From contig JAPUIX010000135.1 of assembly GCA_027296625.1 (NCBI GenBank), forward strand, positions 1-61,146: a stretch of 61,146 bases of DNA, read 5' to 3'. The notes beneath the pieces are model-generated. The model ran no database searches, had not been told where the DNA came from, and saw only the letters and a program-made list of their open reading frames with translations. Shown here piece by piece: positions 25,808 to 27,645 of this stretch. Position 1 is the first letter of the stretch. Each line of letters opens with the position of its first letter. Position numbers and translations under genes: made by a program. This DNA is from Gammaproteobacteria bacterium (GTDB taxonomy: Bacteria; Pseudomonadota; Gammaproteobacteria; JAKEHO01).

Positions 25808-25810
25808 GGC

Positions 25811-25839
25811 TTGGAAAACTCGCGGAATCCCGCTATATT
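25811..25839 (+). promoter_or_regulatory. Sigma-70 promoter before the leucine leader and leuA
   Basis: TTGGAA, exactly 17 bases, then TATATT, starting just past the pssA stop. The -10 matches five of six and the -35 four of six. Predicted start point near 25846, giving an 80-base lead to the leader peptide ATG. Confidence 0.6.
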
Positions 25840-25925
25840 CTTAACGGGTGAAGCGAGAAAATGATTTGGGAACCCCTGTGAAAGGCACCACATACAAATT
25901 TTTTGGACTTTCCTGTTGCCCTCTA

Positions 25926-25982
25926 ATGGTGCCGGGCCTACGATCCTTGCTGTGCCTGCCGCTAACGCGGCTGCTGCCCTAG
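25926..25982 (+). CDS. Leucine-rich leader peptide of leuA (leuL-like)
   Basis: ATG at 25926 to TAG at 25980-25982 encodes MVPGLRSLLCLPLTRLLP, 18 residues, 7 of them leucine, spelled with CTA, TTG and CTG codons. It lies 130 bp before leuA and downstream of a good promoter. The last Leu and stop codons sit inside a hairpin. This is the layout of transcription attenuation: scarce Leu-tRNA stalls the ribosome and changes RNA folding. Too short for gene finders; direct reading of sequence, role inferred. Confidence 0.7.
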   Translation: MVPGLRSLLCLPLTRLLP

Positions 25983-25991
25983 TCAGGGCAG
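25974..25991 (+). promoter_or_regulatory. Leader hairpin over the Leu codons and stop
   Basis: CTGCCCT / AGGGCAG, 7 bp perfect with loop AGTC, covering the last Leu codon and the TAG of the leader peptide. It is in the place of the 1:2 pause hairpin of amino-acid operon leaders. It is not followed by a T-run. Confidence 0.55.
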
Positions 25992-26032
25992 AACAAATCG
26001 CATTCCTAAATTTCACTATTAGAACGTTCCTT

Positions 26033-26060
26033 AGCGCGAGAGCGCTTGAGCGGAGTTTTT
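26033..26060 (+). terminator. Candidate attenuator terminator before leuA
   Basis: AGCGC-GAGA-GCGCT (5 bp, extendable with mismatches) followed 9 bases later by GTTTTT. It is in the place of a leader terminator, but the stem is short and the T-run is not adjacent. Alternative pairing with the leader hairpin was not evident by eye. Confidence 0.3.
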
Positions 26061-26109
26061 ATGTCGGTAATTCAAATATTAGTGGTAGATTAAGCAACGG
26101 AGTGGGGCC

Positions 26110-27645
26110 ATGAAAGATAGGTTGATCATATTCGATACAACGCTCCGAGATGGGGAGCAGAGTCCTGGCGCGTCTATGAATCGGGACGAGAAGCTCCGTA
26201 TCGCCAAGGCGCTGGAAAAAATGGGTGTTGATGTGATTGAATCAGGATTCCCTATCGCAAGTCGCGGGGATTTCGAAGCTGTTCAGAGTGTCGCCGCCGC
26301 AGTCACGGAAAGTATCGTTTGTGGTCTTGCGCGAGCGCTTGAAAAAGATATTGACGTTGCGGCTGATGCACTGAAAAAAGCGAAGTCTGCACGGATTCAT
26401 ACATTTATCGCCACCTCTCCCATCCATATGGAGAAGAAGCTTCGGATGAAACCCGAGGAGGTGCTCGAGCAAGCTGTGCGTGCTGTTAAGCGGGCGCGCC
26501 AATATACGGATGATGTGGAATTTTCGCCGGAGGATGCTGGGCGTTCGGATAGCGACTTTCTTTGCCGAGTATTAGAAGCCGTTATTGACGCGGGCGCAAA
26601 AACGGTGAATATCCCGGACACGGTGGGTTATAGTTTTCCGCATCACTTTGGCGCGCTTATAAAGGAGCTCATAGAACGTGTGCCGAATTCTGATAAAGCC
26701 GTTTTCTCGGTCCACTGTCACAATGATCTCGGTCTTGCCGTAGGCAATTCGTTGTCTGCGGTGATGAACGGCGCCCGTCAGGTTGAATGCACGATCAACG
26801 GATTGGGTGAGCGTGCCGGGAATGCGGCCCTTGAAGAGGTGGTGATGGCAGTTCGGACACGACAAGACATTTTTCCATGTGATGTCGGACTCGACACGAC
26901 TCAGATCTTAAACTGTTCTCGGTTGGTATCGAATATCACTGGATTTCCTGTACAGCCGAATAAAGCGATTGTCGGCGCAAATGCTTTTGCCCATGAGTCG
27001 GGAATTCACCAGGACGGCGTGCTGAAAAGCCGTGATACGTATGAAATCATGCGTGCTGAGGAGGTTGGCTGGAAGGCCAATCGTATGGTGCTCGGCAAAC
27101 ATTCCGGTCGGAACGCATTCCGGACGCGCCTTAAGGAGCTCAATGTGGAATTCGACCGTGAGGAGGACCTTAACGCGGCGTTTATTCGATTTAAAGAACT
27201 CGCCGACAAGAAGCATGAGATCTTTGATGAAGATCTCCAGGCGATCGTTACCGATACTACGCATGATGCGGCTAATGAACGGGTTAAACTTGTAGCGCTG
27301 AGAGTATGTTCGGAAACCGGTGAGACTCCGAAGGCTGCTGTCACTTTGGTCGTCGATGGTGAGGAGAAACAGAGTACGGCCGACGGTAGTGGGCCGGTGG
27401 ACGCCACATTCAAGGGTATTGAGCGTATTATCAACAGTGGTTGCGTGCTGCAACTCTACTCGGTCAACGCCATTACCACGGGTACGGATTCCCAGGGAGA
27501 AGTGACCGTGCGCGTGGACAAGGGAGGACGGATCGTCAATGGGCAAGGTGCCGATACTGATATCGTGATCGCGTCGGCTAAGGCATATATTAATGCACTC
27601 AATAAAATTCTTGATCCTGTGACGCGGACGCACCCGCAAGTATGA
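26110..27645 (+). CDS. leuA: 2-isopropylmalate synthase
   Basis: First committed step of leucine synthesis (acetyl-CoA plus 2-ketoisovalerate), 511 residues. The TIM-barrel catalytic part has [16 protein letters not shown], the metal-binding [10 protein letters not shown] and [18 protein letters not shown], and [12 protein letters not shown]. The C-terminal LeuA regulatory domain from about 390 ([12 protein letters not shown]..., [10 protein letters not shown]) gives leucine inhibition. Preceded by GGAGTGGGG and ATG. The stop overlaps the next start by 4 bp. Confidence 0.96.

Follow-up and report, generated by a model that had tools for sequence, protein, structure and literature searches.

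A Conserved Leucine Leader Upstream of leuA in a Gammaproteobacterium Looks More Like a Switch on Translation than a Textbook Transcription Attenuator

The pssA-leuA Spacer

The DNA analysed here, referred to below as the window, is a stretch of 61,146 nucleotides from a gammaproteobacterial genome assembly (contig JAPUIX010000135.1). In it, a spacer of about 303 nt (25808-26109) between pssA and leuA holds a promoter-like site, a leucine-rich frame, two hairpins and a T-run. The features of the region are as follows.

25811-25839, + strand: promoter-like site TTGGAA-17-TATATT (-35 box 25811-25816, 17 nt, -10 box 25834-25839)
25878-25982, + strand: probable leucine leader peptide frame, 34 aa, GTG 25878 to TAG 25982, supported by conservation in a sister genome
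25884-25933, + strand: in-frame hairpin GGCACCA...TGGTGCC, predicted in the window and the sister
25934-25951, + strand: Leu-codon stretch predicted to pair with the Shine-Dalgarno (SD) region 26093-26109 (MFE fold; duplex -20.2 kcal/mol)
25938-25976, + strand: seven Leu codons, CTA TTG CTG CTG CTA CTG CTG
25974-25991, + strand: hairpin 1, CTGCCCT-AGTC-AGGGCAG, spanning the last Leu codon, the Pro codon and the stop
25999-26002, + strand: CGCA, a possible remnant of the pseudoknot strand ACGCA of relatives, from a match to model R1
26025-26060, + strand: terminator-like hairpin CGTTC-CTT-AGCGC-GAGA-GCGCT-T-GAGCG, then GAG TTTTT (-14.5 kcal/mol)
26093-26109, + strand: SD region of leuA, with GGAG at 26099-26102, the predicted partner of the Leu-codon stretch
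26110-27645, + strand: leuA, 2-isopropylmalate synthase, 511 aa, assigned from matches to solved LeuA structures (best match 3rmj, E 2.9e-159)

A sequence-only reading of this DNA had listed the promoter, a perfect hairpin over the last Leu and stop codons, and a second hairpin with a T-run, and all three are present: the promoter-like site has the sequence given there, hairpin 1 lies at 25974-25991, and the second hairpin (26025-26052) is followed by TTTTT at 26056-26060. Searches of the window's own genome, genus, family and order gave one sister genome only, from the same genus, and class-wide sampling was therefore used for all wider comparisons. The spacer of the sister is 77% identical to that of the window at the DNA level, and the spacer alignment places an almost identical box, TTGGAA-17-TATAGT, at the position of the promoter-like site. 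No similar sequence was found in the E. coli genomes searched with the spacer.

A ten-codon ATG..TAA frame (26061-26093) lies directly after the T-run, with GGAG in front of it. As a second leader this AUG-started frame of 10 aa was dropped; its start codon is missing in the sister.

The Leader Frame and the Hairpin at Its Stop

The 18-codon frame with 7 leucines noted earlier, from ATG 25926 to TAG 25980-25982, does exist, but it stays open upstream as far as GTG 25878, and the leader is probably 34 codons long. The sister has an ATG exactly at the position of GTG 25878 (ATG AAC GGC ACC ACA versus GTG AAA GGC ACC ACA in the window) and a GTG, not an ATG, at the position of ATG 25926, and the leaders of relatives typically have 30-40 codons, which makes 25878 the more probable start, although neither genome has a clear SD ahead of it. 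The 34-codon peptides, VKGTTYKFFGLSCCPLMVPGLRSLLCLPLTRLLP in the window and MNGTTAKHRGCFHCSLVVPELRAHALLPGARLLP in the sister, share their length, start position and RLLP-stop ending, and the sister peptide has 5 Leu codons. Frames with at least 7 Leu in their last 15 codons appeared in 0.2% of 2000 dinucleotide shuffles of the window spacer. Both arms of the in-frame hairpin at 25884-25933 are kept in the sister, without covariation; ATG 25926 is situated at the edge of its 3' arm.

Not a letter of hairpin 1 differs between the window and the sister, and a TGC..GCA hairpin at the stop of the top frame was seen in 1.6% of 2000 dinucleotide shuffles of the window spacer.

Conservation of the Leader across the Class

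Two samples were read: 80 gammaproteobacterial leuA loci, and an unbiased set of 128 regions upstream of leuA, taken from 202 genomes drawn across the class. In the unbiased set, a Leu-rich frame (5 or more Leu among the 15 codons before its stop) precedes leuA in 94 of the 128 regions versus 12.2 +/- 2.3 after shuffling, and 71 of the 128 carry a TGC..GCA hairpin at the stop of that frame versus 2.0 +/- 1.1. The proposed check of the short frame and its pairing in relatives thus came out in favour of both, the Leu-rich frame and the stop hairpin being conserved class-wide. The Streptomyces and Moraxella plasmid copies of leuA that were examined are without a leader.

The commonest leader ending among relatives is L-R-L-L-P-stop. 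A nonredundant set of 108 loci has hairpin 1 at the leader stop, with stem variants that are compensatory (TGCC/GGCA, TGCCGC/GCGGCA, TGCGCC/GGCGCA and TGCGCT/AGCGCA); these loci were chosen by the pairing of hairpin 1, and the evidence is therefore the comparison with shuffles and not the fraction that pairs. Since the hairpin is kept where variants move the stop outside the loop, it reflects a constraint on the RNA and not the Pro codon alone.

Codon usage at the leader end was compared with that of leuA over the last eight codons before hairpin 1 in the leaders of relatives. The rare codon CTA makes up 56 of 447 Leu codons in leaders versus 47 of 2307 in leuA, an enrichment of about sixfold, which fits what a sensor of Leu-tRNA would use. 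Of the 92 Arg codons in this part of the leaders, 45 are the rare codon CGA, versus 118 of 2080 in leuA; the preference might reflect a slow codon or an RNA motif. Relatives mostly have CGA as the Arg codon directly ahead of the final Leu codons (as in loci L004, L006, L019 and L036), also where hairpin 2, described below, is lacking.

A -10 box is recognisable in 85 loci, and in 40 of these the distance from its end to the leader ATG is 6-8 nt; the search was biased to strong boxes and ATG starts, not to that distance. Such spacing suggests that the leader transcripts of relatives start at or very near the AUG, i.e., that the leader peptides are translated from leaderless messages. The corresponding distance from the -10 box to the leader start is 38 nt in the window and the sister.

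Hairpin 2 and a Putative Pseudoknot in Relatives

Depending on the search, 45 to 67 loci carry a second conserved element, hairpin 2 (CCY-GGCG-RGG, then ACGCA), positioned 10-25 nt past hairpin 1. Its fourth pair is standard (CG, GC, TA or AT) in 57 of 67 loci, versus 19 and 42 when slid. The loop GGCG occurs with a downstream ACGC (52 loci) or ACGT (5 loci), while the loop GACG occurs with ACGT only (4 of 4, near-duplicates removed). This pattern is suggestive of a pseudoknot between the loop and the downstream strand in relatives; it is suggestive rather than overwhelming because the GACG loops represent about three lineages. Pairing of CGCA with UGCG of CTGCGA in place of the pseudoknot was also considered, and is unsupported in loci with the GACG loop.

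The window and sister leaders lack both hairpin 2 and the pseudoknot. Within the window, model R1 matches best at 25973-26005 (12.6 bits, E 0.005 in 65.7 kb); in a search of the whole genome the leader of leuA is the sixth match (E 0.18, not significant), so R1 alone cannot identify this leader. The top match in that genome, antisense within a ddl-like gene, was taken as chance. In the class search, 32 R1 matches had E<=1e-7 and a known leuA position, and all are within about 200 nt upstream of leuA.

Pairing of the Leucine Codons with the leuA SD

The duplexes predicted between the Leu run and the cognate SD are stronger than those with non-cognate SDs (z -5.8). When loci are stratified by GC, the signal is strongest at -18..-4 of leuA and vanishes between -60 and -22; on the leader side it is located in the Leu run. 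It persists when each of 52 families is represented by a single locus (z -3.5 to -4.3; controls null). The Leu run and the SD share a Watson-Crick run of 7 or more in 20 of 108 loci, versus 7.8 for non-cognate pairs and 8.7 for shuffled codon order; the figures for a control region are 6 versus 2.1 and 4.0, respectively. When the Leu run is masked in the folds of relatives, the SD is freed (+0.107 versus +0.013 for shuffles, p 4e-6). Compared with codon-order shuffles, however, duplex energies are not better over the loci as a whole (mean z -0.15, p 0.16). The pairing is thus supported for the set of loci, and strongly in a minority of them (e.g., L150 and L023), and the covariation of Leu codons with the SD across families favours translational attenuation.

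In the window itself the SD duplex is no better than with shuffled codon order (p 0.42), and the same is true of the sister (p 0.47). Masking of the Leu run in the window folds does not free the SD (unpaired probability 0.27 -> 0.14), as another stretch, TCCTGTTGC, is available as a pairing partner.

In Methylococcaceae loci L056, L060, L064 and L065, small hairpins that could hide the SD precede the leuA start (e.g., CTCCAT-ga-ATGGAG before TTTTT ATG), which may be another route to SD control after a Leu leader.

The Terminator-Like Hairpin

The hairpin at 26025-26052 is separated from its T-run by three unpaired nucleotides (GAG). The sister keeps both the hairpin (-15.2 kcal/mol), its pairing preserved by one-sided changes, and the five T, and this makes a terminator peculiar to the window's lineage possible. 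A generic terminator scan of the window did not list the hairpin; a separate scan of leuA upstream regions did. Elements composed of a hairpin and a T-run are present in 15 of 108 related loci, where about 7 are expected, and that of the window is among the best. Folding of nascent transcripts gave no antiterminator in the window or the sister: the terminator-like hairpin forms with or without the leader masked. The claim that the spacer has the architecture of transcription attenuation can therefore be retained in part, as far as the Leu leader peptide and structured RNA are concerned, but no antiterminator was found and most relatives are without the terminator. Lineage-specific transcription termination at 26025-26060 is possible.

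Relation to Known Leucine Leaders

Textbook examples of leucine leaders before leuA come from enterobacteria, where the leuL transcription attenuator (Rfam Leu_leader) has Leu codons, including CTA, in the middle of the peptide, a terminator with a T-run, and an antiterminator. The window leader resembles leuL in its CTA-containing Leu codons before leuA and its terminator-like hairpin with a T-run; it differs in that no antiterminator was found and in the position of the Leu codons, which are at the stop and not mid-peptide, and most of its relatives differ further in having no terminator. In the window no Rfam model reached its gathering score, and nine relatives gave no match at E<=1.

The known system that comes closest is the LEU element found before leuA in Actinobacteria, which comprises a leader with a Leu run, a pseudoknot, and a base stem between Leu codons and the leuA SD (Seliverstov et al. 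2005, PMC1262725). The leaders described here share with it the Leu-run peptide and, in relatives only, a putative pseudoknot; a base stem is predicted in the window and backed by class-wide covariation, but is not significant for the window taken singly. They differ in that the pseudoknot of relatives is built from other sequence and is missing from the window and the sister, and in that the Leu codons reach the stop codon, which hairpin 1 covers; no sequence similarity to the LEU element is seen by eye. The four actinobacterial leuA upstream regions that were read (L216-L219, from Nocardia, Nonomuraea, Tsukamurella and Microbacterium) have a Leu run and a start a few nt after a -10-like box, and thus follow a plan common with the gammaproteobacterial leaders but with different sequence and structure. 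By analogy, the window leader may work like the LEU element; membership is not claimed. PLSDB contains large Nocardia farcinica and Nonomuraea replicons, labelled plasmids, that carry leuA with the LEU element.

In the open papers searched, this form of leader appears undescribed outside Actinobacteria and enterobacteria-type leaders; an earlier description in the older attenuator literature is possible.

Proposed Mechanism and Alternatives

The leader before leuA is very probably a real leucine-sensing switch, and its features resemble a control of leuA translation more than a textbook transcription attenuator. It is a diverged member of a widespread and apparently undescribed variant of the leuA leader. 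Sequence comparison provides the conserved frame, hairpin 1, the enrichment of rare codons and the SD covariation of relatives; from these we infer ribosome stalling, a response to leucine, the switch itself, and such a role for the window's own SD pairing. Transcription from the promoter in the spacer would yield an mRNA whose first frame codes for a short peptide, with Leu codons, Pro and the stop at its end. With ample Leu-tRNA, ribosomes would finish the peptide and depart, hairpin 1 would close over the stop, and the Leu-codon stretch would be free to pair with the leuA SD, so that leuA would be translated poorly. With Leu-tRNA in short supply, a ribosome would wait on the Leu codons; both this stretch and the 5' arm of hairpin 1 would then be covered, and translation of leuA could proceed. 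In the window's lineage the terminator-like hairpin may add transcription termination. This reading, in which stalling on Leu codons controls access to the SD and termination may contribute, is the one that we favour with moderate confidence; the lineage may use the translational mode, the termination mode, or both together.

Classical transcription attenuation, in which the position of the ribosome on the Leu codons decides termination at the second hairpin and its T-run, is rather unlikely, although the parts are in the correct order and the hairpin with its five T, kept in the sister at a similar predicted energy, ranks high among the 108 loci. It is set back by the lack of an antiterminator, by the formation of the hairpin under any masking, by the three nucleotides between stem and T-run, and by the small number of related loci with such an element, about twice the expectation. 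We regard it as improbable that the leader RNA is regulated otherwise than by stalling, e.g., by a protein on hairpin 1 and the pseudoknot, the Leu-rich peptide being a by-product of a constraint for CUG-rich RNA. As this explanation would have it, hairpin 1 and the GGCG/ACGC element are features of the RNA, and protein binding was proposed for the actinobacterial LEU element since mutations of its Leu codons departed from the predictions of attenuation (PMC1262725). The enrichment of CTA among leader Leu codons is, however, a signature at the level of the frame, and hairpin 1 is in register with the stop of that frame.

Slightly more improbable still is decay of the element in the window's lineage to a state in which it no longer works. 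The loss of hairpin 2, the five Leu codons of the sister, the weak start context (GTG with no clear SD) and the low R1 score would agree with decay, but hairpin 1 has stayed identical in two genomes whose spacers share 77% DNA identity, and the frame length, the promoter and the second hairpin are kept as well.

A broader proposal, which we put forward tentatively and hold to be somewhat less probable than the translational switch favoured above, is that of a class-wide riboregulator of leuA: the Leu codons of an often leaderless frame would act as the anti-SD, with a stop-codon hairpin and a small pseudoknot in between, forming a translational attenuator parallel or related to the LEU element, and the window would have swapped the pseudoknot for a terminator. 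The leader form occurs in many gammaproteobacterial families, has its own putative hairpin-pseudoknot structure, and has no Rfam family. If its Leu codons double as the anti-SD, one and the same RNA segment would be both the sensor and the switch.
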